A stretch of DNA of 59,667 bases from the NCBI GenBank assembly GCA_029940475.1, contig JAPYUT010000019.1:1-59667 (forward strand), given 5' to 3'. The DNA comes from Verrucomicrobiales bacterium (GTDB lineage: Bacteria > Verrucomicrobiota > Verrucomicrobiia > Verrucomicrobiales > DEV007). Positions 2,951 to 51,928 of this stretch are shown here, one piece after another; positions within the stretch are counted from its first letter, which is position 1, and the number at the start of each line of letters is the position of its first letter. A program made the position numbers and the translations under genes. Under the pieces are notes generated by a model. That model saw nothing but the letters and a program-made list of their open reading frames with translations. It made no database searches and was not told the origin of the DNA.

Positions 2951-2981
2951 TTTAAATCTAACTCGCTGGTTTTTAGCGAGT
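2951..2981 (-). terminator. hairpin directly after selC, possible terminator
   Basis: A 7-bp inverted repeat ACTCGCT / AGCGAGT (2961-2967 and 2975-2981) with a 7-nt loop begins at the last base of the encoded CCA. On the minus strand it is followed by TTAGATTTAAA, a poor T tract. It could terminate or help process the tRNA transcript; the weak T run keeps confidence low. Confidence 0.35.
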
Positions 2982-3075
2982 GGCGGAGAGGGAAGGAATC
3001 GAACCAACCAGGGCAGCAGAACTACCCTCAACGGTTTTGAAGACCGCGGAGGCCACCAGGCACCCATCACTCTCC
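2981..3075 (-). tRNA. selC: tRNA-Sec (UCA anticodon), selC
   Basis: The reverse strand folds as a 95-nt selenocysteine tRNA, the same length as E. coli selC with CCA included. The anticodon loop is CTTCAAA (anticodon TCA) on a five-pair stem. The long variable arm pairs GGGTAG with CTGCCC, the D arm is extended around TGGT, and the 3' end is G followed by an encoded CCA. The acceptor has six clean pairs (GGAGAG/CTCTCC), then a U-C mismatch and a G-C pair. The T stem GTTGG/CCTTC has two adjacent U-U mismatches. It therefore reads UGA with selenocysteine if it is functional, or it is a decaying copy. It sits in the 460-base gap between the GC-rich first gene and uxaC; I see nothing else convincing in 2736-2950. 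No selA, selB or selD is present here. Confidence 0.85.
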
Positions 3076-7999: not shown

Positions 8000-8018
8000 T
8001 TGTGAAAAGTTTCACAAA
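8000..8018 (+). promoter_or_regulatory. CRP-type palindrome upstream of nuoD
   Basis: The sequence TTGTGAAAAGTTTCACAAA contains a perfect TGTGA-N6-TCACA palindrome (8001-8016), the arrangement bound by CRP-family regulators. It lies about 95 bases before the nuoD start in the 307-base gap after the secreted nuclease gene. The same motif occurs upstream of nuoB at 51704-51719. I see no other organised element in this gap apart from the weak promoter at 8025-8054. Confidence 0.6.
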
Positions 8019-8024
8019 TAGCAC

Positions 8025-8054
8025 TTGCGGGATTATTTAAGCATTCAATACTAA
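8025..8054 (+). promoter_or_regulatory. candidate promoter of the nuoD-N operon
   Basis: TTGCGG (8025-8030) and TACTAA (8049-8054) are separated by 18 bases. The pair lies 8 bases downstream of the CRP-type palindrome, so an activator at 8001-8016 would abut the -35 region. The hexamers are weak, which fits an activator-dependent promoter, but this is inference. Confidence 0.35.
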
Positions 8055-8110: not shown

Positions 8111-9370
8111 ATGGCAGATAAACTGCAGCAATTTGAGACCCCAGATACAGCTGGCAAGGCCGCGCAGGCTCTTGAAGCGTATCAGCAGACAACCGACGAT
8201 CTTGTTGGTGAGAAACTGACGCTAAACATGGGGCCTTCGCACCCGGCGACCCACGGTGTTTTGCGCCTTATCCTCGAACTTGACGGGGAGGTAATTACAA
8301 AAGCCGAACCGGATATTGGCTATCTGCATCGCGGTGATGAAAAGATTGCCGAGAACATGCACTATAATCAGTTTGTTCCTTACACAGACCGTTTGGATTA
8401 TCTGGCACCACTGGCCAATAACGTGGCGTATGCATGTGCGGTTGAAAAATTAATGGGCTGGGAATTGCCGCCCCGCGGCCAGGCGGTTCGTGTGCTTTGC
8501 TGTGAGTTGGCGCGCGTCTCAGCGCATCTTCTGGGTATCGGGTGTTATGCGATGGACGTCGGGGCAATGACAGTGTTCCTTTATACGTTTAACCAGCGTG
8601 AGAGCGTCTATGATCTTTGTGAGCAGATTTCCGGGGCGAGGTTTACCACCAGCTATACCAGGGTGGGCGGGCAAACGCGCGACATTACACCGGAAATTAT
8701 CAGTGGAGTGGAGAAGTTTTGCGATGAGGTGAGTGAGGTGATCGATGAAGTTGATGATCTCCTGTCACGCAATAAGATTTTCCTGGATAGGACAAGGGAG
8801 GTTGGTGTCATTTTGCGTGAGGATGCCATTGGTTACGGACTTACCGGCCCTAACCTGCGCGCAACGGGAGTTGATTTTGATATGCGCAAAAATCATCCTT
8901 ATCTCGGCTATGAGAAGTTGGATTTTGAGATTCCTATAGGCAAGGTGGGTGACAGCTACGATCGCTACTTGGTGCGCATGGAGGAAATGCGCCAGAGTGT
9001 TCATATATTACGCCAGGTGTGCAGAGAGATGCCTGATGGACCGATCAACGTTGTTGATCCCAAGGGTGCCTTGCCGGAGAAGGAGCGGGTGCTGATGAGC
9101 ATGGAGGAGTTGATCCATCATTTCATTGTAGCGACCCAGGGGATTGATGCGCCTGAGGGGGAAGTTTATTTTGGTGCTGAGAATCCGAAGGGGGAGCTCG
9201 GTTTTTATATCAACTCGAAGGGTGGTGGAGTACCTCATCGGCTGAAGATTCGCAGCCCTTCCTTTGCAAACCTGAGCATCCTGCCGAAGATGCTTCCCGG
9301 GCACATGGTGAGCGATGTTGTCGTTATCCTTGGCAGCCTCGATTTCGTCATGGGGGAGTGTGACCGCTAA
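8111..9370 (+). CDS. nuoD: NADH-quinone oxidoreductase subunit D (49 kDa)
   Basis: The 419-residue protein is the 49-kDa quinone-site subunit of the peripheral arm of complex I. NMGPSHPATHGVLRLILELDGE near residue 38 contains the conserved quinone-binding histidine region. PDIGYLHRGDEKIAE and GGVPHRLKIRSPSF are also diagnostic, and the C-terminus ends in the family's SLDFVMGECDR. It is a stand-alone NuoD, not a NuoCD fusion. It is the first gene of an eleven-gene operon, downstream of a CRP-type palindrome. NuoB and NuoC, its direct partners in the arm, are encoded about 41 kb away on the other strand. Confidence 0.98.
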   Translation: MADKLQQFETPDTAGKAAQALEAYQQTTDDLVGEKLTLNMGPSHPATHGVLRLILELDGEVITKAEPDIGYLHRGDEKIAENMHYNQFVPYTDRLDYLAPLANNVAYACAVEKLMGWELPPRGQAVRVLCCELARVSAHLLGIGCYAMDVGAMTVFLYTFNQRESVYDLCEQISGARFTTSYTRVGGQTRDITPEIISGVEKFCDEVSEVIDEVDDLLSRNKIFLDRTREVGVILREDAIGYGLTGPNLRATGVDFDMRKNHPYLGYEKLDFEIPIGKVGDSYDRYLVRMEEMRQSVHILRQVCREMPDGPINVVDPKGALPEKERVLMSMEELIHHFIVATQGIDAPEGEVYFGAENPKGELGFYINSKGGGVPHRLKIRSPSFANLSILPKMLPGHMVSDVVVILGSLDFVMGECDR

Positions 9371-9377
9371 AAATCTG

Positions 9378-9875
9378 ATGGAAGTCCCGAAGGAACTCGA
9401 AAAGGAGGCGGATGATTTCATCTGCCATTACCCGCAGGAGGAGAAAGGCAGCGCTTCATTGCCGCTGTTGCATCTTTTACAGCGGGAATTCGGGTATATT
9501 AGTGACGATGCGATTTCCTGGGTGGCGGAAAAACTTGGCACCGAGCCGATAAAGATACTGGAACTGGTGACTTTTTACCCGGGATTCCGGCAGAAGGCCC
9601 CGGGTAAATACCATATCAGGGTTTGCCGTACACTCTCCTGTGCCATGGCCGGCTGCCACCAGACAATGGAGAAAATCTGTGAACTGGCAGGGATAGACCG
9701 ATCAAATGTTTCTCATCATGACCCGATTGCGATTTCAACTGACGGGAAATTCAGCATTGAGTTTGCCGAGTGCCTGGCAAGTTGCGGGACAGGCCCGGTT
9801 TGCCTGGTTGGTGATGATTTTCATGAGGAGGTTAAACCCGAGAACACGGAGCAACTCCTGCAGCAATACAAGTGA
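9378..9875 (+). CDS. nuoE: NADH-quinone oxidoreductase subunit E (24 kDa)
   Basis: NuoE binds a [2Fe-2S] cluster (N1a) in the NADH dehydrogenase module. The four ligands are seen as CRTLSC in the middle of the protein and CLASC further on, the usual C-x4-C and C-x3-C pattern. The start is uncertain: ATG 9378 gives 165 residues, starting MEVPKELEKE, but has no Shine-Dalgarno sequence. GTG 9360 overlaps the end of nuoD and follows a GGGGGAG run only one base away. The stop overlaps the nuoF start (TGATG), indicating translational coupling. Confidence 0.95.
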   Translation: MEVPKELEKEADDFICHYPQEEKGSASLPLLHLLQREFGYISDDAISWVAEKLGTEPIKILELVTFYPGFRQKAPGKYHIRVCRTLSCAMAGCHQTMEKICELAGIDRSNVSHHDPIAISTDGKFSIEFAECLASCGTGPVCLVGDDFHEEVKPENTEQLLQQYK

Positions 9876-11275
9876 TGGCTGATCCGAGATATATCGCCGG
9901 GAAAAAGCCGCATCCACGTGAGAGGCGGATGATTTTCCGTAATGTTGATCGCTCCGGGTGGGATGCTTCGATTGCAACATACCGTAAGGACGGAGGTTAC
10001 AGGGAGCTTAAGAAAGCTCTGAAGATGAAGCCGGCGGCAGTGACTGATGAAGTGAAGGCGTCCGGTCTTCGTGGCCGGGGCGGGGCAGGTTTCCCGACCG
10101 GCGTGAAGTGGGGATTTATTCCGCCTGATAACAACAAACCGATCTACCTGATCTGCAATGCTGATGAGTCCGAGCCCGGTACGTTCAAGGATCGCTACAT
10201 TATTCATCAGGATCCGCACCAGCTTCTTGAAGGTATCCTGATCTCCAGCTATGCGGTTGGGGCCAAGGTCGCCTATATCTACATCAGGGAGGAATTCCCC
10301 GAAGGTGCGGTGATTCTTGAACGGGCAATTGAAGAGGCACGAACTGCTAAATTGCTGGGTAAAAAAATTCTTGGAACTGATTTCGAATGCGAGATTTACA
10401 TTCATCGCGGGGCTGGAGCCTACATATGCGGTGAGGAGACCGGCTTGATCGAGTCCCTTGAGGGCAAGCGACCCTATCCGCGTATCAAGCCTCCCTATTT
10501 TCCTGCGGTGCTCGGCCTGTATATGTGCCCGACGATCGTTAACAATGTGGAGTCACTTTGCCATGTGAAGCATGTCATGGCGATGGGTGGGAAGAAATAT
10601 GCCCAGTTGGGCACACCGCGAAATACAGGCACGCGTATTCTCTGTGTCAGCGGGGATGTGCAGAAGCCGGGTTACTTTGAGATTGAGGTTGGAAAGCTGA
10701 CAATGGGTGAACTCATAGAAGATCTTTGCGGGGGAATGAAGAAAGGCCGTAAACTCAAGGCGGTCATCCCCGGCGGTTCCTCGGCAAAGGTATTGCGTGC
10801 CGGTGAAACCTACACAATAAGGGATGGTGACAAGGAGAAGACCATCGGATTACCTGATATACCGATGGACTTTGATTCATTGGCTGCCTGTGGCTCAATG
10901 GCCGGTTCAGGGGGAGTGATCGTCATGGATGACAGCCGGGACATGACCTGGGTGCTCAACAATATCAACACGTTCTATGCGCATGAGTCCTGCGGGCAGT
11001 GCACCCCTTGTCGGGAAGGCTCACTGTGGATGAAGAAGATCACCGATCGCATGCTCTCCGGTGGTGGTGTTCCTTCAGATGTTGAGACGCTCGTATCAGT
11101 GGGTAACAATATCGCAGGCCGGACAATTTGTGCCTTTGGAGAGGCTTGTGCATGGCCAACGCAGAGCTTTGTAGCCAAGTTCCCGGAGGAATTCAAGAAA
11201 CACACGAGCCGCAGGAATATCGGCAAAGCCCTCAACCCCGAAACAAAGACTGCTTCAGCAGGTCTGGGTGATTAA
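9875..11275 (+). CDS. nuoF: NADH-quinone oxidoreductase subunit F (51 kDa)
   Basis: NuoF carries FMN, the NADH site and cluster N3. The glycine-rich nucleotide loop SGLRGRGGAGFPTGVKW is near residue 65. CNADESEPGTFKDR and ICGEETGLIESLEGKRP are also conserved, and the [4Fe-4S] motif ESCGQCTPCREG is near residue 367, with the fourth cysteine in TICAFGEACAWP. Length (466 residues) is typical. The ATG at 9875 overlaps the nuoE stop by one base; a GTG at 9872 is possible but less likely. Confidence 0.98.
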   Translation: MADPRYIAGKKPHPRERRMIFRNVDRSGWDASIATYRKDGGYRELKKALKMKPAAVTDEVKASGLRGRGGAGFPTGVKWGFIPPDNNKPIYLICNADESEPGTFKDRYIIHQDPHQLLEGILISSYAVGAKVAYIYIREEFPEGAVILERAIEEARTAKLLGKKILGTDFECEIYIHRGAGAYICGEETGLIESLEGKRPYPRIKPPYFPAVLGLYMCPTIVNNVESLCHVKHVMAMGGKKYAQLGTPRNTGTRILCVSGDVQKPGYFEIEVGKLTMGELIEDLCGGMKKGRKLKAVIPGGSSAKVLRAGETYTIRDGDKEKTIGLPDIPMDFDSLAACGSMAGSGGVIVMDDSRDMTWVLNNINTFYAHESCGQCTPCREGSLWMKKITDRMLSGGGVPSDVETLVSVGNNIAGRTICAFGEACAWPTQSFVAKFPEEFKKHTSRRNIGKALNPETKTASAGLGD

Positions 11276-11280
11276 CTGTA

Positions 11281-12996
11281 ATGGTGGCCTCGAAAGACAG
11301 TGGTGAGAACCTGGTGAGCGTTCAAGTCGACGACCACTGGATCAGTGTGCCCAGGGGAACGCGGATGATCGAAGCCTGCAAGCAGGCTGCCGCAGAGGTT
11401 CCGCATTATTGTTATCATCCCAAGCTGACCTCTCCGGGAAACTGTCGGATGTGCCTTGTGGAGATGGGGATGCCGCCGCGGCCTTCCCCGGGAGAGGAAC
11501 CTGAACTAGACGCCGACGGACATGCAAAAATCAACTGGATGCCGAGGCCGGTAATCGCCTGTGCCAACACAGTTGTCGACGGCATGGGGATTCGCACTCA
11601 GTCATTGCTGGCCAAGGAGTGCCGGCAGGGGGTGATGGAATTCCTCCTGATTAATCATCCGCTTGATTGCCCTATTTGCGACCAGGCAGGGGAATGCACC
11701 CTGCAGGAATACAGCGTCGAGCACGGCAATGGGCAATCACGCTTCCTTGAAAGCAAGGTGAAGAAGCCGAAAAACGTGGAAATAGGTCCGCGGATTCGTC
11801 TTGATGATGAGCGCTGTGTGCTCTGCTCACGCTGTGTGCGTTTTTCAAAGGAGGTGGTGGATGATGATGTTTTCGGTTTTGTTGACCGGGGCAGTCACAG
11901 TGTACTTACTGTCCATCCTGACCGCAAACTGGAGAATAACTACTCCCTGAATACGGTTGATATTTGCCCTGTTGGAGCGCTCACTTCCAATGATTTCCGT
12001 TTTAAGATGCGGGTTTGGTTCATGCGTGAGACCAAGTCACTGTGCACCGGGTGCGCGCGTGGATGCAACACGGTGGTAGGATCACGGGAGGGAAAGATTT
12101 ACCGCCAGTCTCCGCGGGAGAATAATGACGTTAACTCTGCGTGGATGTGTGACACCGGGCGCATGGAATATCATCAGCTTGAGAATCCGGCACGCTTGAC
12201 TGAGCCCATGATCAAGCGCGGGAAGAAGCACCGCACGGTTGATTGGCCGGAGGCAATTTGCCGTGCAGCCAGGGACTTGACGAAGTTCAAGGGTGAGCAA
12301 TTGGCTATCATCGCTTCAGGGCGCATGACCAACGAGGAACTTTATCTGACCAGGACACTGGCAGAAAGTTTGCAGCCCGGGGTAGTGGACATTGTGAAGA
12401 GGGAGGGGGAAGGGGATGATTACCTTTCCCATTGCGATAAGAACCCGAATGTGAACGGAGCGCGGAAAGTGCTCAAGATTCGTTCTCCTGGATCCAAGTT
12501 AAAATCAATCCGGAAAAGGATTGTTGAGGATAAAATCAAGGCTCTGCTGGTAATTGGAGAAGACCTCATTGATTGTGGATTTACTGAGGGGGAGCTTAGT
12601 AGCCTCCAGTGTCTTGTCTCCTCGCATATTATTGCCAATCCGACTGCAAAAATGTCCCATGTGGTTCTTCCCGGGGCAGGTTATGCGGAGAAACGGGGAT
12701 CAATGATTAATGCCACGGGGCGCTTGCAGCGCCTTAATAAAGCGATTGATCCCCCGGGGCAAAGCCGTGAGGACTGGGAAATCCTTCATGAACTCAACCG
12801 TGCAGTGGACGGGTGTGATGGTGTTACTGAGCTTGCTGATGTTTTTACTCAGATGGCGTCGACCCTTTCAATATTCAAGGGTTTGAGCCTTTCCCGAATC
12901 GGTGACCTCGGGGTGGATGTAATGGATACCGGGGAAACAGTGCCCCTGCTGGAACGGGAAGCACGACGTGTTAGCGAGGGATTGATCGTTGGTTAA
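11281..12996 (+). CDS. nuoG: NADH-quinone oxidoreductase subunit G (75 kDa), short form
   Basis: NuoG is the electron-wiring subunit. The N-terminal ferredoxin domain has CYHP ... CRMC for a [2Fe-2S] cluster. HPLDCPICDQAGEC serves the next [4Fe-4S] site, CVLCSRCVRF with CPVGALTS the following one, and CTGCARGC the fourth. The molybdopterin-oxidoreductase-like region is compressed: the protein is 571 residues against roughly 690-900 in better-known NuoG. The tail still shows VVLPGAGYAEKRGSMINATGR, typical of the end of that domain. It follows nuoF by five bases. The short form looks natural, since the frame is intact and the neighbours are in register. Confidence 0.96.
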   Translation: MVASKDSGENLVSVQVDDHWISVPRGTRMIEACKQAAAEVPHYCYHPKLTSPGNCRMCLVEMGMPPRPSPGEEPELDADGHAKINWMPRPVIACANTVVDGMGIRTQSLLAKECRQGVMEFLLINHPLDCPICDQAGECTLQEYSVEHGNGQSRFLESKVKKPKNVEIGPRIRLDDERCVLCSRCVRFSKEVVDDDVFGFVDRGSHSVLTVHPDRKLENNYSLNTVDICPVGALTSNDFRFKMRVWFMRETKSLCTGCARGCNTVVGSREGKIYRQSPRENNDVNSAWMCDTGRMEYHQLENPARLTEPMIKRGKKHRTVDWPEAICRAARDLTKFKGEQLAIIASGRMTNEELYLTRTLAESLQPGVVDIVKREGEGDDYLSHCDKNPNVNGARKVLKIRSPGSKLKSIRKRIVEDKIKALLVIGEDLIDCGFTEGELSSLQCLVSSHIIANPTAKMSHVVLPGAGYAEKRGSMINATGRLQRLNKAIDPPGQSREDWEILHELNRAVDGCDGVTELADVFTQMASTLSIFKGLSLSRIGDLGVDVMDTGETVPLLEREARRVSEGLIVG

Positions 12997-13003
12997 TGAT
13001 ATA

Positions 13004-14152
13004 ATGAACTGCTCACTGGCCAGTATTGAATTCTCCGCGGTGCTGATCCACGTGATCAAGATCGTGGTGCTGGTGTTTGTCGTGATTCTGCCGATGGTGG
13101 CTTATTCTGTCTGGGCCGAGAGGAAGGTGAGTGCAATTATACAGGATCGGGTTGGACCCAATCGCGTGGGCATTCCTTTTACCAAGATCAGCCTTGCCGG
13201 TCTTGGGCAACCGATCGCAGACGGAGTCAAGTTTTTGCTCAAAGAGGATCTTACCCCGGGGCATGTCAACAAGCTGTATTTCTGGCTGGCTCCAGCCTTG
13301 ACGATGGTCCCGGCTATACTGACATGCGCGGTGTTGCCTTTTGGAAGCGAGTTGTTCGGCGAGAAGATGGTGGTTGCGGATTTGAATGTCGGGCCGCTTT
13401 TCATTTTTGCCATTGCCTCGCTGAGTGTTTACGGCATCGTCCTGGCGGGCTGGTCATCGAATTCAAAATATCCCTTCCTGGGGGGCATTCGATCGAGCAG
13501 CCAGATGATATCCTATGAGATCTCGCTTGGCCTTTCACTGGTCCCGGTATTGCTTATTTTTGGTGAACTGAATCTCAGCACGATTGTTGAGGAACAGAGC
13601 AAAAATGGCTGGCTGCTGCTGCCGTTATGGGGCGAGGGAGCGGTATGGAATGGCGGATGGGACCGATTCTTCCTGTTCTTCCCGGCCTGCATCGCCTTTA
13701 TCGTTTTTACTACCTCAATTTTTGCCGAGACCAACCGGCTGCCATTTGATCTTCCCGAGTGCGAGACGGAACTCGTTGCCGGCTATCACACTGAGTATTC
13801 ATCGATGAAGTTTGCTTTGTTTTTCCTTGGAGAATACGCTGCGATGATTATTGGCTCCGGACTTATTGTAACCCTGTTTCTTGGCGGTTGGTCGTTGCCA
13901 TTCGGATGGGATGCCGGCTTGATGAAGATGGCCGGCAATCCTGAGCAGGTTCCGTGGTGGCTGGGGTTGATGCATATAGCAACTTTCCTTGGCAAGGTGA
14001 TTGCCTTCATTATTTTCTTTATATGGGTGCGCTGGACCCTGCCCCGTTTCCGCTATGACCAGTTAATGAAACTCGGTTGGATTGTTTTCTTTGAACTCGC
14101 CCTGCTGAATATATTCATCACCGCCGGAATCCTTATCCTGACACGTCCCTAG
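13004..14152 (+). CDS. nuoH: NADH-quinone oxidoreductase subunit H
   Basis: NuoH is the membrane subunit that forms much of the quinone tunnel. AYSVWAERKVSAIIQDRVGPNRVG in the first transmembrane loop and FAETNRLPFDLPECE further on are the family hallmarks. About eight hydrophobic helices are visible. ATG 13004 gives 382 residues. A TTG at 12989 overlaps the end of nuoG and has a GAGGG Shine-Dalgarno-like sequence eight bases upstream, so the start could be there and coupled to nuoG. Confidence 0.97.
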   Translation: MNCSLASIEFSAVLIHVIKIVVLVFVVILPMVAYSVWAERKVSAIIQDRVGPNRVGIPFTKISLAGLGQPIADGVKFLLKEDLTPGHVNKLYFWLAPALTMVPAILTCAVLPFGSELFGEKMVVADLNVGPLFIFAIASLSVYGIVLAGWSSNSKYPFLGGIRSSSQMISYEISLGLSLVPVLLIFGELNLSTIVEEQSKNGWLLLPLWGEGAVWNGGWDRFFLFFPACIAFIVFTTSIFAETNRLPFDLPECETELVAGYHTEYSSMKFALFFLGEYAAMIIGSGLIVTLFLGGWSLPFGWDAGLMKMAGNPEQVPWWLGLMHIATFLGKVIAFIIFFIWVRWTLPRFRYDQLMKLGWIVFFELALLNIFITAGILILTRP

Positions 14153-14159
14153 ATTGACC

Positions 14160-14690
14160 ATGCCTATTGTCGTTCAACGTCCCAGGCTAACGATTGCCGA
14201 GAAGTGTTACTTCCCGGCGATCATGAAGGGTTTGCGGATTACCCTGGGGCATGCAATCCGGATTCTGCTCCGCAAGAAAAAGGTAACAATGCAGTATCCC
14301 GAGGCGAAGTGGGATGACCACCTGCCGGAGCATTACCGCGGAGCCCCGGCACTTGTCACCGACGAACATGACCGTGAGCGTTGCGTGTCCTGTCAATTAT
14401 GTGAGTTCATCTGTCCGCCAAGGGCGATTACAATTATTCCGGAGGAGATCCCTGCCGGGGATGAGTGGCAGAAGGTCGAGAAACGCCCGAAGATCTTTGA
14501 TATTGATATGATCCGCTGCATTTACTGCGGCATGTGCGAGGAGGTTTGTCCGGAGCAGGCAATATTTCTTCGCAAGGATTATGCCATTACCGGGGTTTCC
14601 CGCGAAGAAATGGTTCATGACAAGAAGAAGCTCTACGAGATTGGAGGCAGGCGCGAGGGATTGGTCAACAAATGGAATGAGTTGAAGTGA
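14160..14690 (+). CDS. nuoI: NADH-quinone oxidoreductase subunit I (TYKY)
   Basis: The ferredoxin-like subunit with two [4Fe-4S] clusters (N6a and N6b) passes electrons towards NuoB. The motifs CVSCQLCEFICPPRA and CIYCGMCEEVCPEQA are both complete. The N-terminus contains an amphipathic membrane-contact stretch with LRITLGHAIRILLRKKK. Start ATG 14160 lies seven bases after the nuoH stop. Length (176 residues) is normal. Confidence 0.97.
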   Translation: MPIVVQRPRLTIAEKCYFPAIMKGLRITLGHAIRILLRKKKVTMQYPEAKWDDHLPEHYRGAPALVTDEHDRERCVSCQLCEFICPPRAITIIPEEIPAGDEWQKVEKRPKIFDIDMIRCIYCGMCEEVCPEQAIFLRKDYAITGVSREEMVHDKKKLYEIGGRREGLVNKWNELK

Positions 14691-14715
14691 TTTATAACGC
14701 TTGCTGCAAGTAACA

Positions 14716-15228
14716 ATGTCATTGCTTTTCTATATATTTTCCGGCGTGATGCTGGTGTTTGGGTTGCTGGTTGTCGTTAACCGCAATCCTGTTTCCAGTG
14801 CACTTTCCCTGGTGGTGTCATTTATGGGACTTGCGGCCCTGTTCATCACGCTCAACGCCTACTTCATAGGCGTGATCCAGATTCTCGTATACACCGGCGC
14901 GGTGATGGTGCTGTTCCTGTTCATCATAATGCTGTTGGACATCAAGTCTGAGCAATGCCGTAAACTTAACTATGTTGCCATGGGTGGCGGGGTCATGATT
15001 GTCCTCGCTTTTGTTGCCCAGCTGACAATGATCCTGGCAGGCTATGCTCCCGGAAAACAAAGGCTCGTGGAGTTGCCTGGGGATGCCGCGGTTCATCAGG
15101 ATGTGAAACGGGTTGGGGAAGCGCTCTTTACCCACTTTAATTTTCATCTGCAGTTGCTTGGAGTGCTTTTACTCATCGCAACGATCGGGGTGGTAGTGCT
15201 CAGCCGCCGCCAGGGCGAGGGTAACTAG
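14716..15228 (+). CDS. nuoJ: NADH-quinone oxidoreductase subunit J
   Basis: The 170-residue membrane subunit has five predicted helices. NRNPVSSALSLVVSFMGLAALF and VIQILVYTGAVMVLFLFIIMLLD (about residues 55-77) mark NuoJ, the latter being the flexible helix-3 region. The start is taken at ATG 14716; an in-frame TTG at 14701 is less likely. It sits between nuoI and nuoK in the standard order. Confidence 0.96.
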   Translation: MSLLFYIFSGVMLVFGLLVVVNRNPVSSALSLVVSFMGLAALFITLNAYFIGVIQILVYTGAVMVLFLFIIMLLDIKSEQCRKLNYVAMGGGVMIVLAFVAQLTMILAGYAPGKQRLVELPGDAAVHQDVKRVGEALFTHFNFHLQLLGVLLLIATIGVVVLSRRQGEGN

Positions 15229-15237
15229 AGAGCAACG

Positions 15238-15564
15238 ATGATGCCGAGTCTCAACGAATACCTGATGGTCAGCGGATTGCTTTTCGCAATCGGTTTTGCC
15301 GGAGTTCTGATGAGACGGAATATCATCATCATCTTTATGTGTCTTGAAATGATGCTTAGTGCCGCCAACCTGTCGCTGGTTGCTTTTTGGCGTTTCGGGA
15401 ACGGACAAGGAATGCCTGCGCAAGGTTATGACGCACAGGTGCTGGTATTTTTCGTCATTGCGGTGGCTGCCGCGGAGGTGGCCGTTGGACTTGCCATTAT
15501 TGTTGCCCTGTTCCGTGCCCGGTGCACGGTACATGTCGAAGACCTTAACAGCATGAAAGGCTAA
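15238..15564 (+). CDS. nuoK: NADH-quinone oxidoreductase subunit K
   Basis: The 108-residue, three-helix subunit corresponds to MrpC/ND4L. It shows [24 protein letters not shown], with the essential membrane glutamate in the second helix. [23 protein letters not shown] carries the second conserved glutamate. Two consecutive ATG codons (15238, 15241) are possible starts. Confidence 0.96.
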
Positions 15565-15574
15565 TAAGCGCGAG

Positions 15575-17401
15575 ATGAGCATTGCTTTCATTATCCTCCT
15601 GCTGCCACTCGTTGCTGCCGCATCGATTCTGCTGGGTATCAGGAAGAAGGCAAACCTGAGCGCCTATGTATCGGTAGCTTCTGCCGGCATCTGTTTTCTG
15701 CTCACGCTGGGACTGATTCGTGGCAGTGGTGGTGAGGCAGGAGCATTCACCTGGTTGAGTGTCGGGGGCCTGGAACTTAAGATCGCCCTGGAGATTACCG
15801 GGTTGACGCGGGGAATGATTCTGGTGGTAACTCTTGTGGGGTTGCTGGTGCATATATTTTCCCTGGGTTACATGAGGGATGATGCGGGCAAGGCGCGCTA
15901 TTTTGCGGGCTTGTCGTTGTTTATGTTCTCGATGAGCGGTATCGTCCTGGCGGACAACTTCGCGATGATGTTCATCTTCTGGGAACTGGTTGGAGTGAGT
16001 TCCTATCTGCTCATTGGGCACTGGTTCCAGAAAAATTCCGCGGCGGAGGCTTCAAAAAAGGCATTCCTTGTTAATCGCATTGGAGACTTTGGTTTTATGG
16101 CGGGAATTCTTTTACTTTGGGGTGCGACCGGAGAGATTGGTTTTTCCGCCCTGAGGGAGACCCTTGAGGTTCAAACATTTGACCCGTCATTGCTCAATTG
16201 GGCGATGATCTGTATTTTCTGCGGAGCGGTCGGCAAGTCCGCGCAGGTTCCGTTGCATGTCTGGTTGCCGGATGCGATGGAGGGACCGACCCCTGTCTCT
16301 GCCCTTATCCATGCGGCTACCATGGTTGCAGCCGGTGTATTTATGCTGACTAAGGTCACTTTCCTGATCATTGCAGCGCCGGTTGCAGCTTCCGTTATTC
16401 AACATGTCGGTGCGCTGACAGCATTGCTGGCAGCGCTGATGGCGACCCAGCAGAGCGACATTAAGAAGATTCTTGCATACTCAACATTGTCCCAACTTGG
16501 CTACATGGTGATGGCTGTCGGGTTTGCCGGCTTTCTTCACTCAGGGGAAGCTGTCGGTGCAGTAGCCTCAAATGCCGGCTTTTTTCACCTTTATACCCAT
16601 GCTTTTTTCAAGGCCCTGCTTTTCCTTGGAGCCGGTGCGGTTATTTATGCCTGTCATCATGAACAGGATATCTGGAAGATGGGCGGGCTGATTAGGCTGA
16701 TGCCGGTGACTGCCATTACTTTCCTGATAGGGACTGCGGCCCTTGCCGGGTTGCCGCCACTTAGCGGTTTCTGGAGCAAGGATGCAGTGATGGCGGTAAC
16801 ACAGAACAGCACGCCGCTTCTGATTGTCGGTGCAATTACCGCTTTTCTTACAGCTTTTTACATGAGCCGTTTATGCACCATCGTGTTTTTCGGGAAAGCG
16901 CGTTCGCAAGCAGCCCGTGAAGCCGGGGAAGTGCCTTTGATGATGCGTGCGCCGCTGGTCATTCTTGCGCTTGGTGCAGTGATTGCCGGCTTTGAGTTTG
17001 CCTATGGATGGTTCATTGCACCGGCAGATCTTCCGCATCCGCATGGCGCACTGCCACTAGTGCTGACGATTATTGGAGTTGCGGGAATTGTTACCGGATA
17101 CCTGCTTCATCGCGGACGGGAGAAGGATCCGATCCGGGTGGAGGTGCTTGTTCGCAAGTTCTACATCGACGAGTTCTACCTGTTCCTTGTCAGGGTATTC
17201 CAGGATGGAGTTGCGTATCTTGCCAAGGCTGTCGATCAATTGTTGATCGACGGGTTGATTGTGCGTGGCAGTGCGCGCCTGACGGTGGGGGTGGGTTTGT
17301 TGCTGCGCGGTTTACAGGGGGGCAACCTGCAGAGGCATGTGTTTCTGTTTGGGGTGGGAATTGTCATCGTTATTTACCTTATTACCATCGCCTTAGGATA
17401 G
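15575..17401 (+). CDS. nuoL: NADH-quinone oxidoreductase subunit L
   Basis: NuoL is the distal antiporter-like proton-pumping subunit (608 residues, many helices). Signatures include FIFWELVGVSSYLLIGHW, KSAQVPLHVWLPDAMEGPTP followed by VSALIHAATMV, and LAYSTLSQLGYMVMAVG. The C-terminus has the extension that provides the lateral helix, with KFYIDEFYLFLVR. ATG 15575 lies ten bases after nuoK. Confidence 0.97.
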   Translation: MSIAFIILLLPLVAAASILLGIRKKANLSAYVSVASAGICFLLTLGLIRGSGGEAGAFTWLSVGGLELKIALEITGLTRGMILVVTLVGLLVHIFSLGYMRDDAGKARYFAGLSLFMFSMSGIVLADNFAMMFIFWELVGVSSYLLIGHWFQKNSAAEASKKAFLVNRIGDFGFMAGILLLWGATGEIGFSALRETLEVQTFDPSLLNWAMICIFCGAVGKSAQVPLHVWLPDAMEGPTPVSALIHAATMVAAGVFMLTKVTFLIIAAPVAASVIQHVGALTALLAALMATQQSDIKKILAYSTLSQLGYMVMAVGFAGFLHSGEAVGAVASNAGFFHLYTHAFFKALLFLGAGAVIYACHHEQDIWKMGGLIRLMPVTAITFLIGTAALAGLPPLSGFWSKDAVMAVTQNSTPLLIVGAITAFLTAFYMSRLCTIVFFGKARSQAAREAGEVPLMMRAPLVILALGAVIAGFEFAYGWFIAPADLPHPHGALPLVLTIIGVAGIVTGYLLHRGREKDPIRVEVLVRKFYIDEFYLFLVRVFQDGVAYLAKAVDQLLIDGLIVRGSARLTVGVGLLLRGLQGGNLQRHVFLFGVGIVIVIYLITIALG

Positions 17402-17413
17402 GCATCACGCGAA

Positions 17414-18886
17414 GTGACTATCATTGACCTAATTATCATTATTCCAATTCTCGCTGCCGTGGCGATTGGTTGTGGCGGTTCCGCCAGAGTATTGGCACTC
17501 GCAGCGGCCTGGGCAAACCTGCTCCTCGGGCTTGTCGTGTTTGTGACACTGGTCGCCAAAGGTGGTGACGAGATGCATTTTAAGAGTTCCTGGGTATTGC
17601 TCCATTCCCCTGAACTAACCCTTGGGTTTGCTGTTGATGGCATGAGCGGGGTGCTTGTGTTGCTTACTGTCATCGTGACCTTCTGTGCGGTCAGGGTATC
17701 CTCAGGGGATCTCGGCAAAGGAAGCGGGAAACTGTACTATATATCATTGTTGCTTATTGCCGCAGGTGCGCTCGGTGCGTTTTGCGCCACTGATCTTTTC
17801 TTTTTCTACGCATTTCACGAGCTTGCATTAATTCCAACTTTCCTGATGATAGGAATCTATGGGAATGGACGGGAAAAGGTTGCAACGGCCTGGAAGATTA
17901 CCATTTACCTCGGGGTGGGAAGTCTTATCCTGCTTGGCGGGCTAATTGCACTTTACGTCAGCCTTTCGCCGCCAGGTGCGCCGACTTTTGATATTGCAAA
18001 ACTGGCACCTTCTCCGGGTGAACATCCACTGAGTGCTGAAGTGCAGAAATGGATCTTTCTGCCCCTGCTTGTTGGCTTCGGGATCCTGGTTTCCCTGTTT
18101 CCGTTCCACAGTTGGGCAGCCCCTGCTTACGCGGCCGCTCCCACGCCGGTGGCAATGTTGCATGCCGGGGTTCTGAAAAAATTTGGTCTTTACGGGATGC
18201 TGCGTGTGGCTATGCCGCTGTTGCCGGAGGGGTTCGAGGCCTGGAAGGGGCTGTTACTTGTGCTGCTACTGGGGAATATCCTCTATGTTGGATTGGTCAC
18301 AATTTCGCAGCGTTACCTTGACCGGATGATTGGCAATTCCAGCGTGATGCATATGGGATACATCTTCCTGGGAATTGCCTGCTGCAACAGTATAGGATGG
18401 GGCGGGGCGGTATTGATGATGTTTGCCCATGGCATCTCGATTGCCCTGTTATTTGCCCTGTGCGGATCATTGCGAGAGCGCCTCGACACTCTGGAAATTT
18501 CGCGTCTCGGAGGACTTGGTGGAAGTATGCCTTTCCTGGCGGTGACTTTCGGGTTTGCCGCTTTCGCCTCGATCGGGCTTCCGGGCTTCGCCAATTTTGC
18601 CTCAGAGATCACTATTTTCTTTGCTGCCTTCAAGGATGCCGGGGAGATGGGTATACTACAGGTTGCTACCATACTGGCATTGTGGGGGGTTGTAATATCC
18701 GCTGTATATATGTTGCGTGCCTACAGGAGTATCTTTCAGGGGGAACTCATTGGAGAGCGTTACCCTGCTGACTTAGCTCAGTCGATGAGATTGCCGGTTG
18801 TTCTAATGATCGTGATACTGCTACTCACGGGATTTTTTCCGAATATTATCCTTAAACTTCTGCCGAACCTGTTCGAAGTCCTCTGA
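17414..18886 (+). CDS. nuoM: NADH-quinone oxidoreductase subunit M
   Basis: NuoM is the middle antiporter-like proton-pumping subunit (490 residues). FFFYAFHELALIPTFLMIGI has the key glutamate of the proton channel. FPFHSWAAPAYAAAPTPVAM then LHAGVLKKFGLYGMLR is the conserved broken-helix region, and NSSVMHMGYIFLG occurs later. The likely start is GTG 17414, about ten bases after nuoL. It precedes nuoN by four bases. Confidence 0.97.
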   Translation: MTIIDLIIIIPILAAVAIGCGGSARVLALAAAWANLLLGLVVFVTLVAKGGDEMHFKSSWVLLHSPELTLGFAVDGMSGVLVLLTVIVTFCAVRVSSGDLGKGSGKLYYISLLLIAAGALGAFCATDLFFFYAFHELALIPTFLMIGIYGNGREKVATAWKITIYLGVGSLILLGGLIALYVSLSPPGAPTFDIAKLAPSPGEHPLSAEVQKWIFLPLLVGFGILVSLFPFHSWAAPAYAAAPTPVAMLHAGVLKKFGLYGMLRVAMPLLPEGFEAWKGLLLVLLLGNILYVGLVTISQRYLDRMIGNSSVMHMGYIFLGIACCNSIGWGGAVLMMFAHGISIALLFALCGSLRERLDTLEISRLGGLGGSMPFLAVTFGFAAFASIGLPGFANFASEITIFFAAFKDAGEMGILQVATILALWGVVISAVYMLRAYRSIFQGELIGERYPADLAQSMRLPVVLMIVILLLTGFFPNIILKLLPNLFEVL

Positions 18887-18890
18887 TCTG

Positions 18891-20369
18891 ATGCTGCCCT
18901 ATTATCTAGAGATATGCGTTGTGGTGCTTGGCTCGCTGATGCTTTGTATGGAGCTTTTCGCGGGTCGGCGATCACGGGCTAAAATCGCCATGGTAGGAGT
19001 GGCAGGGCTTGGCGTGATATTCGCGTTACTGATGTTTGCGGTATGTTCGCCAGGAGAAGACCTGCAATATTGGGGAATTTACCATTTTGATAAGTGGGCG
19101 GCCTTTTACAAGGGCTTGGCATTGATTTCCACGTTGTTGGTATTGGTGATGGCACGTGAGTTTGCTCCGGTTTTTAAGCATTACACTTCGCAGGATGAAG
19201 AGAAATCCGGCATCGGGGAGTTTTATTGCCTGCCGATTTTCGTGTGTTCAGGGCTAATGTGGATGGCCTCAGCCAAGGATCTGGTTACTATTTTTGTATC
19301 ACTTGAACTGGTTACCATGGGTTTCTATGTGCTGGTGGCTTTCATGCGCCGGAATGTGGGTTCGCTGGAGGCAGGGGTGAAATATCTTATCCTCGGTGCT
19401 CTTTCAACCGGGTTTCTGGTCTATGGCATTGCCTGGACTTTCGGGGTGTCGGGAACCTTCAATCTCGAGGAACTCAGTGTTGTGTTGGCTGGCGATGACA
19501 TTCCCAGTGCGCCTGTGATGTTTGCATTTGCCCTGCTGATAGCTGGGATTGGTTTCAAGATTGCCGTGGTGCCGTTTCAAATATGGGTGCCCGATGTTTA
19601 CCAGGGGGCTGCAATGCCGGTTACCGCCTACCTGTCGGTTGCTTCCAAGGCTGCCGGGTTCATCGTGTTCCTGCGTGTTGTTGACCCGTTTTTGGCGGCT
19701 CCGTCAATCAGGGAACCTGCCATTTACCTGATGGTTTTCGTGACCTGTGCCACCTTGATTTACGGTAATCTTGCGGCGATTGCCCAAAAGAATATTAAGC
19801 GCCTCCTTGCGTATTCAAGCATTGCGCATGCGGGCTTTCTGCTGATGGCCCTGCCGGCATTGGGAGCGGCAGGCACCATAGCCGGTCCTGGCCCGGAGTC
19901 TGCGATCTCGTTTTACCTGGCCGGTTATCTTCTGATGACATTGCTTTGTTTCCTTGTCCTTACTGTCGTGAGGGTTGCCACGAATGGCGAAGACCTCACG
20001 GCGCTGGAGGGCTTGGGAAAACGTTCGCCTTTCCTTGCCTTCGCCATGCTTGTTGGGGTTGCATCCCTGGCGGGAATTCCATTGACGGTGGGATTCTTCG
20101 GCAAATTCTTCCTGTTTAATATAGCCATCCAGAATGCCATGCAGAACGGCTTGTGGATTGTCGTATTTCTGGCGGTTCTGGGTGCCGCCACAGGATTTTA
20201 CTACTACTTCAAGATCATCCGGGCGATGTATTGGGAGGGCTCTGTGAGTGAAGGTGAAGTTACCGGATTGAAAGTCGGCAGGTTGGCGATGTTGGCCATT
20301 ATACTTTTGGTGGTTGCGGTATTTTTCTTTGGTATTTTTCCGGCGCCGCTTCTTGGGTTGACCCTCTAG
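18891..20369 (+). CDS. nuoN: NADH-quinone oxidoreductase subunit N
   Basis: NuoN is the third antiporter-like subunit (492 residues). Signatures are TIFVSLELVTMGFYVLVAF and FKIAVVPFQIWVPDVYQGAA, followed by PVTAYLSVASKAAGF and AYSSIAHAGFLLM. The last helix ends just before the stop. It closes the nuo operon; no clear terminator follows in the 92-base gap before the two-component genes, so read-through is possible. Confidence 0.97.
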   Translation: MLPYYLEICVVVLGSLMLCMELFAGRRSRAKIAMVGVAGLGVIFALLMFAVCSPGEDLQYWGIYHFDKWAAFYKGLALISTLLVLVMAREFAPVFKHYTSQDEEKSGIGEFYCLPIFVCSGLMWMASAKDLVTIFVSLELVTMGFYVLVAFMRRNVGSLEAGVKYLILGALSTGFLVYGIAWTFGVSGTFNLEELSVVLAGDDIPSAPVMFAFALLIAGIGFKIAVVPFQIWVPDVYQGAAMPVTAYLSVASKAAGFIVFLRVVDPFLAAPSIREPAIYLMVFVTCATLIYGNLAAIAQKNIKRLLAYSSIAHAGFLLMALPALGAAGTIAGPGPESAISFYLAGYLLMTLLCFLVLTVVRVATNGEDLTALEGLGKRSPFLAFAMLVGVASLAGIPLTVGFFGKFFLFNIAIQNAMQNGLWIVVFLAVLGAATGFYYYFKIIRAMYWEGSVSEGEVTGLKVGRLAMLAIILLVVAVFFFGIFPAPLLGLTL

Positions 20370-50520: not shown

Positions 50521-51096
50521 TCAGGAATCTAATTCTCTTGAGCGAGGTTCGCGTTTGTCGGTTCCAGCCGATGTTGGGGAGGTGACAAAGGGGCCACCCT
50601 CAAGGGGGGCGGCTTCCGAGAACGCGACATCAGGCATTTCGCTTGGTTTTCCGGCGAGGGGGAAATCTTTACGCAGGGGAAAGAAAGGGTAGCCTTCCCA
50701 CATCAAAATCCGGCGCAGGTCAGGGTGTCCGGTAAATGTGAGGCCAAGCATATCGTAAGCTTCGCGTTCGTGCCAATTGGCCGTGGGCCAGAGATCAACG
50801 ACCGAAGGCAATTCACGGTCCGCTTCATCGACACCGGTTTTAATTCTCAGATGACAGCCGTGATTATATGAATACAACTCGTAGACAACTTCATAGCGTG
50901 GATCATCACCCATGTTATCGATACCTGCGAGGTCGACCAGGTAATTAAAATGAAGGACCTCTTTACAGAATGTCAGAGCATCCTTGATCCGGGATGGCGC
51001 GATTGTGACTGATACCTCGTCACGAAAGAGAGTTCTTCCATGGAATTCTTTGCCAAGCTCTTGTTCGATTTTTTCCGAAGCCTCAATGGAGTCCAT
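50521..51096 (-). CDS. nuoC: NADH-quinone oxidoreductase subunit C (30 kDa)
   Basis: The 191-residue subunit has YEVVYELYSYNHGCHLRIKTGV and the family signature WPTANWHEREAYDMLGLTF followed by GHPDLRRILMWEGYPFFPLRKDFPL. It belongs to the quinone module of complex I, between NuoB and NuoD. It is not fused to NuoD. It follows nuoB by 23 bases on the minus strand, and the two form a separate unit from nuoD-N. Confidence 0.97.
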   Translation of the reverse strand: MDSIEASEKIEQELGKEFHGRTLFRDEVSVTIAPSRIKDALTFCKEVLHFNYLVDLAGIDNMGDDPRYEVVYELYSYNHGCHLRIKTGVDEADRELPSVVDLWPTANWHEREAYDMLGLTFTGHPDLRRILMWEGYPFFPLRKDFPLAGKPSEMPDVAFSEAAPLEGGPFVTSPTSAGTDKREPRSRELDS

Positions 51097-51119: not shown

Positions 51120-51647
51120 TTAGCTGAATTCCTCAATGAGTTCGCGTTTCTGTGCCTGTAGGGAATTTTCACCCGCAATTTTTGTCTGCAGGCGCATGAG
51201 CCCCTCGAGCAGTGCTTCCGGGCGTGGAGGGCATCCGCTGACGTAGACATCAACTGGCAATAGGCGATCAATGCCCTGCAACACGGCGTAACTGCGATAC
51301 ATTCCTCCCGAAGAAGCGCAAGCACCCATTGCAATCACCCATTTTGGTTCTGGCATTTGGTCATAAATGCGTTTTACAGCCAGTGCCATTTTGTAGGTCA
51401 CAGTGCCCGCAACGATCATGACATCACTTTGTCGCGGAGAGAATCGCATGACCTCAGCTCCGAAACGAGAAATGTCGAAGCGAGATGCCCCGGTGGCCAT
51501 CAATTCAATCGCACAGCAGGCCAGCCCCATTGGCATGGGCCAGAGGGAATTACCCCGCATCCAGTTAATTGCGGCATCCAGGCGGGTGAAGATAATATTT
51601 CCCTCGATTTTAGAATCGTAAGCGGCGGGAGCGGTTTCGGTTGCCAT
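51120..51647 (-). CDS. nuoB: NADH-quinone oxidoreductase subunit B (PSST)
   Basis: The 175-residue subunit binds cluster N2, the last electron carrier before quinone. The ligands are the adjacent cysteines in [11 protein letters not shown], the cysteine in [12 protein letters not shown] and the one in [14 protein letters not shown]. Length is normal for a stand-alone NuoB. nuoA, its usual upstream partner, is not in the 281-base gap upstream. A CRP-type palindrome lies about 57 bases upstream. Confidence 0.98.
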
Positions 51648-51703
51648 GAGCGTATACCTTATTAATTCAACCCTAGGGCTACCGGTACCACGGGCAAGTT
51701 GTT

Positions 51704-51719
51704 TGTGATTTTTTTCACA
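51704..51719 (-). promoter_or_regulatory. CRP-type palindrome upstream of nuoB
   Basis: TGTGATTTTTTTCACA (plus-strand reading) is a perfect TGTGA-N6-TCACA site. On the minus strand it is followed after six bases by TTGCCC (51697-51692) and, after 16 more, by TAGGGT (51675-51670), a weak promoter pair upstream of nuoB. The arrangement mirrors the site before nuoD at 8001-8016, which also has CTTGC just downstream. Confidence 0.6.
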
Positions 51720-51928
51720 AAGTGACAGCTTTAAATCCGGGCGACATCCTGAAAAGGGCTCGAGACTTTTAACGCTAAAGTTGTTTTAATGCTCTATAAT
51801 GATCAGATTAAAAGTGAAATGGTGGTATTCCTTTTATCAACTGGTGAGACTTGTGGCAGCTTGGCAGGGAATTAATTAACCTGTTGCCACGGCATTGGTG
51901 ATTTTCTTATATTTTAATGTGAATATAT

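Follow-up and report, generated by a model that had tools for sequence, protein, structure and literature searches.

Two palindromes that precede separated complex I gene units in a 59,667-nucleotide stretch of Verrucomicrobiota DNA (the window, meaning the whole stretch analysed) are predicted, with high confidence, to be operators of Rex, a transcriptional repressor that senses NADH/NAD+, and to belong to a set of such operators located upstream of genes for complex I, for ATP synthase and for a putative complex III in the Rex-bearing Verrucomicrobiota genomes examined.

Palindromes upstream of nuoD and nuoB

An earlier note on this DNA had reported two perfect TGTGA-N6-TCACA palindromes, one before nuoD and one before nuoB, and a motif scan of the whole window recovered exactly these two, at 8001-8016 and 51704-51719. 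In shuffled windows the perfect 16-mer averaged 0.07 copies and two or more copies arose in 0 of 100 shuffles, which bears out the note's view that a shared palindrome was unlikely to be chance. Both sites also match when the motif is extended by one base on each side to TTGTGA-N6-TCACAA (8000-8017 and 51703-51720), a form seen in 0 of 100 shuffles, and chance was ruled out on these counts as the origin of the perfect and extended sites. With up to two mismatches the motif occurs at chance level (24 in the window, 23.25 expected), so that only the perfect copies stand out. The palindromes had been called identical and the two units placed 41 kb apart: the fixed letters are indeed the same but the six inner letters differ, and 41 kb fits the gap from nuoD to the end of nuoC, whereas the sites themselves are 43.7 kb apart. 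The nuoD site ends at 8016, 94 bases before the nuoD ATG at 8111; the nuoB site leaves 56 bases on the minus strand between 51704 and the nuoB ATG at 51647. The published form TTGTGAA-N4-TTCACAA is fitted fully by the nuoD site and with one departure by the nuoB site, which differs from TTGTGAAANNTTTCACAA at two inner positions. The features of the two units are as follows.

8000..8017, no strand: predicted Rex operator of the nuoD-N unit, TTGTGAAAAGTTTCACAA, a perfect 8+8 inverted repeat with a 2-bp centre
8025..8030, plus strand: predicted -35 box TTGCGG, 7 bases past the operator, from the sequence and the alignment of nuoD loci
8047..8052, plus strand: predicted -10 box AATACT, spacer 16, a weak match
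8111..9370, plus strand: nuoD, first gene of the nuoD-N unit (Pfam Complex1_49kDa, E 2.7e-113)
9315..20369, plus strand: nuoE, F, G, H, I, J, K, L, M and N, in that order (Pfam)
50521..51096, minus strand: nuoC (Pfam Complex1_30kDa, E 9.8e-43)
51120..51647, minus strand: nuoB (Pfam Oxidored_q6, E 1.1e-29)
51692..51697, minus strand: predicted -35 box TTGCCC, 5 bases past the operator on the minus strand
51703..51720, no strand: predicted Rex operator of the nuoBC unit, TTGTGAAAAAAATCACAA on the minus strand, from the sequence

The genes nuoE to nuoN are predicted to be co-transcribed with nuoD. The TTGC block that had been noticed beyond each palindrome was confirmed: its start is 7 bases past the 18-bp operator at nuoD and 5 bases past it at nuoB, and in related loci it resembles a -35 element.

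Sites across the source genome

The source genome (3.97 Mb, 92% complete) contains eight perfect 16-mers, against two for the reversed-motif control. Five of the eight carry the outer T and A of TTGTGA-N6-TCACAA, and all five precede energy or quinone-tail genes. Two of them are the nuoD-N and nuoBC sites; the others stand before the ATP synthase operon (atpB), before a putative operon for alternative complex III and oxidase, and before the gene of a polyprenyl diphosphate synthase. The other three of the eight were put down to chance; the ORFs that contain them encode a CotH-type protein, an asparaginase and a protein whose N-methylation motif is sub-threshold. The polyprenyl synthase site overlaps the ORF start as called, so the true start of that gene is unsure. 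The sole one-mismatch copy of TTGTGAAANNTTTCACAA in the genome is 29 bases upstream of a PSCyt1 cytochrome c gene.

The putative alternative complex III operon encodes, in order, Cytochrome_C7, MoCo_extend_TAT plus Fe-S, NrfD, cytochrome c and CtaD-like proteins. A profile search of this operon matched no ActA-F model, and the related Qrc models scored below cut-off; we take this multihaem-cytochrome/NrfD arrangement to resemble alternative complex III (hence the Act names) followed by cytochrome oxidase. The nuoA gene stands apart from nuoBC and nuoD-N on another contig (L230:1441-1818, G000:C65), where no good Rex site was found; a copy with 3 mismatches, about 0.4 kb upstream, falls within another ORF.

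The regulator

The E. coli CRP consensus has the same TGTGA-N6-TCACA core, and the earlier note had proposed one CRP-family regulator for both nuo units. The shared palindrome does point to a single regulator of the two units; that it is of the CRP family is very probably wrong. The outer T/A and inner A/T of the sites are the Rex form and go beyond the core common to CRP. A search of the source genome with HTH_Crp_2, one of two Crp models (the other being PF00325), gave no match in the 92% of the genome represented, while 14 of 14 control genomes were positive, so the CRP/FNR gene that the note had suggested looking for did not appear among HTH_Crp_2 matches. Four cyclic-nucleotide-domain (cNMP) proteins, which might speak for CRP-type control, are encoded in the source genome, but a Pfam search of these four found no DNA-binding domain.

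The genome does contain a single Rex gene (G000:C117, L009:1483-2106; PF06971, E 2.6e-17, over cut-off). Its product scores 243 bits against NCBIfam NF003995, for which the cut-off is 126, and matches eight PDB Rex sequences at E 4.5e-41 to 3.9e-38. The DNA-recognition residues of T. maritima Rex, given as Arg48, Lys49, Arg60 and Gly61 (PMC8836258), are kept here as R50, K51, R62 and G63. Altogether 10 of the 12 DNA contacts listed in that source are kept, including all nine that it calls highly conserved, and the two that have changed (Glu34 to Ser and Ser52 to Ala) are among the three that it calls variable. For NAD(H) binding, the GMGNLG loop, N94 and Y102 are kept, and similar substitutions occur at three further positions (Ile93 to L95, Asp115 to E117 and Lys120 to R122). 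The operator of S. aureus Rex has the consensus TTGTGAAW4TTCACAA and was first noted there as TGTGAn6TCACA (PMC2883068); the general Rex consensus is TTGTGAANNNNTTCACAA (PMC5317091, quoting Ravcheev 2012; PMC5355995). From sequence evidence, the regulator of both nuo sites is very probably Rex and not CRP.

Co-occurrence of the site with Rex

The extended site is found largely where Rex is found. Among the 50 genomes searched from 80 nuoD loci, 31 of 32 with Rex carried the site, versus 2 of 18 in which Rex was not detected. In a class sample of 189 genomes, for which at least 90% completeness was requested, the corresponding counts were 56/61 and 16/128 (Fisher p 2.7e-27), and two or more sites occurred in 45/61 versus 2/128. 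Site totals against the reversed control were 206 versus 8 in Rex-positive genomes and 18 versus 6 in Rex-negative ones. The exceptions were thus Rex-negative genomes with a site (2/18 and 16/128) and Rex-positive genomes without a perfect one (1/32 and 5/61). Rex was scored as absent in four cases in which the match was weak and fell below the family cut-off, and none of these four has a site.

No such association was seen for CRP-type proteins. HTH_Crp_2 does occur in 82 of the 189 class genomes (E 1e-5, among the candidates scored, at most 29 per genome), but the site was present in 29 of these 82 and in 43 of the 107 others (p 0.55). On the same candidates (at most 29 per genome), it was present in 34 of 37 genomes with Rex and no HTH_Crp_2, versus 7 of 58 with HTH_Crp_2 and no Rex. 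Among the 34 site-bearing genomes, the source genome included, 20 have an HTH_Crp_2 match at E 1e-3 and eight have one over cut-off, but 14 have none. On gene content, as judged by HTH_Crp_2 in a 92% complete genome, and on co-occurrence, CRP/FNR control is largely refuted, and we regard binding of these sites by a CRP/FNR-family regulator as highly improbable.

Within the order, 14 Rex-positive genomes have 5-12 sites and 22 Rex-negative genomes have 0-1; within one family (f2) the ranges are 5-7 and 0-1, and within one genus (g6) two Rex-positive genomes have five and six sites and a Rex-negative genome has none. Three of the eight families that mix both kinds of genome do not separate cleanly: f8 has a Rex-negative genome with two sites, f16 has no sites in either kind, and f26 has one Rex-negative genome with two. 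The NuoD tree yields seven pairs without shared branches, in which the site follows Rex in 4-5 and runs against it in none (p 0.06-0.125); this is the right direction, is not significant alone and is too small to be decisive. For the most part, then, genomes with Rex have such sites and genomes without it do not.

Many of the genomes are related, and co-occurrence by itself does not identify the protein. The palindromes might in principle be kept for another reason, as an mRNA leader element or as the target of some other transcription factor co-inherited with Rex. Against this stand the identity of the 18-bp sequence with the experimentally defined Rex consensus (PMC2883068), the fact that site number follows Rex within f2 and g6, and the position of the sites upstream of the predicted promoter and outside the transcript; we attach next to no weight to such an explanation.

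Conservation and targets in related genomes

A lack of conservation before orthologous nuo genes had been named in the earlier note as a refuting result; the site was found there with at most one mismatch in 46 of 80 nuoD loci, and the proposal of a shared site withstood this test. A perfect 18-bp site lies upstream of nuoD in 44 of these related loci and a one-mismatch site in two; the sites start 65-165 bases before the NuoD match. The remaining 34 of 80 lack a site at up to two mismatches, a number that includes six loci from outside Verrucomicrobiota and one with no upstream sequence.

Several Rex-positive genomes without a nuoD site were considered as exceptions. Three (G012, G015 and G050) were ruled out as such by a site before nuoF, between nuoE and nuoF, and a fourth (G049) by a site that precedes nuoA. 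Genome G026 has Rex and five sites, none of them before nuoD. Genome G047 (L075) has two PF06971 matches and no perfect TTGTGA-N6-TCACAA site, and perhaps has a Rex with another operator.

The regions around the sites were surveyed in 16 of 33 site-bearing genomes, giving 60 regions and 62 sites, with one listed site (G017:C258) left out. Each site was assigned to the nearest gene whose estimated start fell between 100 bases inside and 450 bases beyond it. By this rule 58 of the 62 sites precede respiratory or quinone-tail genes, as follows.

actA-like: 13
atpB: 12
nuoG: 9
nuoD: 8
nuoB: 7
nuoF: 3
NDH-2-like: 3
polyprenyl synthase: 2
nuoA: 1
none matched: 4

The reference for NDH-2 is itself one of the three NDH-2-like cases (L180, named by Pfam), and in a second, L208, nuoD has the site in common with it. 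The sites of L170 and L202 were assigned to nuoG by tblastn. Those without an assigned respiratory gene are in L189, L210, L217 and L229. The reference set contained no cytochrome bd or haem genes, and none of the surveyed sites, of which 58 of 62 went elsewhere, was assigned to such genes. In genomes in which complex I is split further, the nuoG block bears its own site.

Some arrangements are unusual. In G018, G020 and G032, a pair of perfect Rex sites is separated by only 5-7 bases, and the G018 pair precedes actA (L197). Another region of G018 (L196) has one site before nuoD and a second one between nuoF and nuoG. In G049 (L216 and L217), one site precedes nuoA, and another has a HEAT-repeat gene about 0.5 kb downstream and a Rieske gene after that; this Rieske neighbourhood is possibly a bc-type complex in place of alternative complex III.

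Position of the predicted operator relative to the predicted promoter

The spacing between operator and TTG was counted for sites upstream of nuoD in 73 of the 80 loci plus the source-genome locus (L007), leaving out L076, which has no upstream sequence, and the six loci of other phyla. In 43 of 45 distinct nuoD sites a TTG starts at exactly 5 bases (20 sites) or exactly 7 bases (23 sites) past the operator. Among other offsets the commonest downstream was +22 (10/45), and none upstream exceeded two. At nuoB sites the TTG is at +5 in 7/8 and at +7 in 1/8; it is at +7 in 7/8 nuoG sites and in 8/13 atpB sites. A TATAAT-like hexamer was best at a spacer of 17 in 19 of 43 nuoD sites, where about a fifth would be expected. 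Across loci the -35 boxes are imperfect (TTGCGA, TTGCCG; the earlier nuoD row set used for these boxes took the last site per locus and may include a few nuoF or nuoG sites), and the -10 boxes match weakly. The proposed promoters were missed by a generic sigma-70 scan, which gave none on the plus strand at the predicted nuoD -35 and -10 boxes, so that these promoters rest on the alignment of many loci. The operator likely adjoins a -35 box, lying just upstream of it.

At actA, where the 5/7 rule does not apply, the operator is nearer to the gene: from its end to the estimated start there are 7-35 bases in 10 of 12 loci and 96 bases in the other two. In S. avermitilis, Rex footprints at nuoA1 and atpI cover the -35 region and extend towards -10, and a footprint covers 27-29 bases on an 18-base site (PMC5355995). 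A footprint of that length would reach the -35 box here, and occlusion is therefore plausible. The operator lies upstream of -35, unlike in S. avermitilis, so occlusion would be less direct, which leaves room for a Rex that binds but activates, or acts as a dual regulator, from this position. An activator could exploit the fixed spacing of 5 or 7 bases to TTG seen in 43/45 nuoD, 8/8 nuoB and 7/8 nuoG sites, and the imperfect -35 and -10 boxes would suit it. The actA operator, by contrast, is in a repressing position in 10 of 12 loci, and in Streptomyces Rex represses nuo and atp (PMC5355995).

Relatives without detected Rex also bear on activation. Three loci (L041, L058 and L061) come from genomes without detected Rex or perfect sites, two of them labelled Akkermansiaceae, and form one clade beside four Rex-positive relatives in the NuoD tree. 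The CCCCTTGC -35 block before nuoD is kept in all three and the following GGTGCTTATT block in two, beside a ruined operator: 3 of 12 fixed letters are lost in L041, and decay is plainer still in L058. The promoter therefore seems to work without the operator, which argues against activation, and we consider an activating or dual Rex unlikely. The decay pattern fits an operator whose retention depends on the presence of Rex, and a promoter that can do without the operator.

Discussion

Under the favoured interpretation, Rex as a repressor, a Rex dimer would likely sit on the operator beside the -35 box when NAD+ is dominant and hinder RNA polymerase. As NADH builds up, Rex would release the DNA, allowing a joint rise of complex I, the later parts of the chain, quinone synthesis and ATP synthase. 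The likely action of Rex is to repress the respiratory chain as a whole, with relief by NADH. Complex I is broken into separate blocks, so an operator copy before several of these would keep their output matched.

It is probable, in our judgement, that Rex acts as a single NADH gauge of the oxidative phosphorylation chain across Rex-bearing Verrucomicrobiota, with the same operator on all parts holding the split complex together. Taken as a whole, this probable reading covers complex I starts at nuoA, nuoB, nuoD, nuoF and nuoG, NDH-2, alternative complex III and oxidase, quinone-tail synthesis and ATP synthase. It also includes an operator often locked 5 or 7 bases from -35, and the state of Akkermansia glycaniphila and others, which are without the regulator and the sites.

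Rex control of nuo, atp and ndh2 is already known in Streptomyces: S. avermitilis Rex binds a TTGTGAA-N4-TTCACAA operator, targets nuo, atp and ndh2, and is released by NADH (PMC5355995). The Verrucomicrobiota system resembles it in the regulator, the operator form and the nuo/atp/ndh2-type targets, as predicted here from sequence. As described for S. avermitilis, nuoA1-N1 is one operon and its operator encompasses the -35 region (PMC5355995), whereas here complex I lies in blocks, of which several have a predicted operator to themselves, in most cases immediately upstream of -35, and sites are also found at the putative alternative complex III/oxidase operon and at polyprenyl synthase. S. aureus Rex has the same operator (TTGTGAAW4TTCACAA), but the targets given for it (such as adhE, ldh1, pflB and nir genes) belong mostly to fermentation or anaerobic metabolism and not to oxidative phosphorylation (PMC2883068). 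Desulfovibrio is likewise a non-Gram-positive group with Rex, which is said to co-regulate Rnf and sulfate-reduction genes; it differs in its anaerobic sulfate respiration (PMC4215793, PMC7608387). In Caldithrix abyssi, of another phylum, Rex was likewise predicted by sequence and alternative complex III is also present, but the candidate site precedes rex and a hydrogenase cluster, with no complex III link in the part of that report consulted (PMC5317091).

A literature search, to which the general survey of Ravcheev 2012 was external, found no Rex regulon in Verrucomicrobiota and no Rex control of alternative complex III, and found nothing related for Planctomycetes. As far as the searched literature shows, the phylum, the complex III target and the operators before several scattered complex I blocks are new. 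If true, our interpretation would give a concrete, testable switch for respiration in Verrucomicrobiota. It suggests how the genes of one multi-subunit complex, when split between operons, may stay coordinated, namely as fragments with copies of the same operator, and natural losses of the regulator and its sites serve as experiments.

Other features of the window

A selenocysteine tRNA with anticodon TCA was predicted by ARAGORN at 2981-3073 on the minus strand, and the organism may use selenocysteine.
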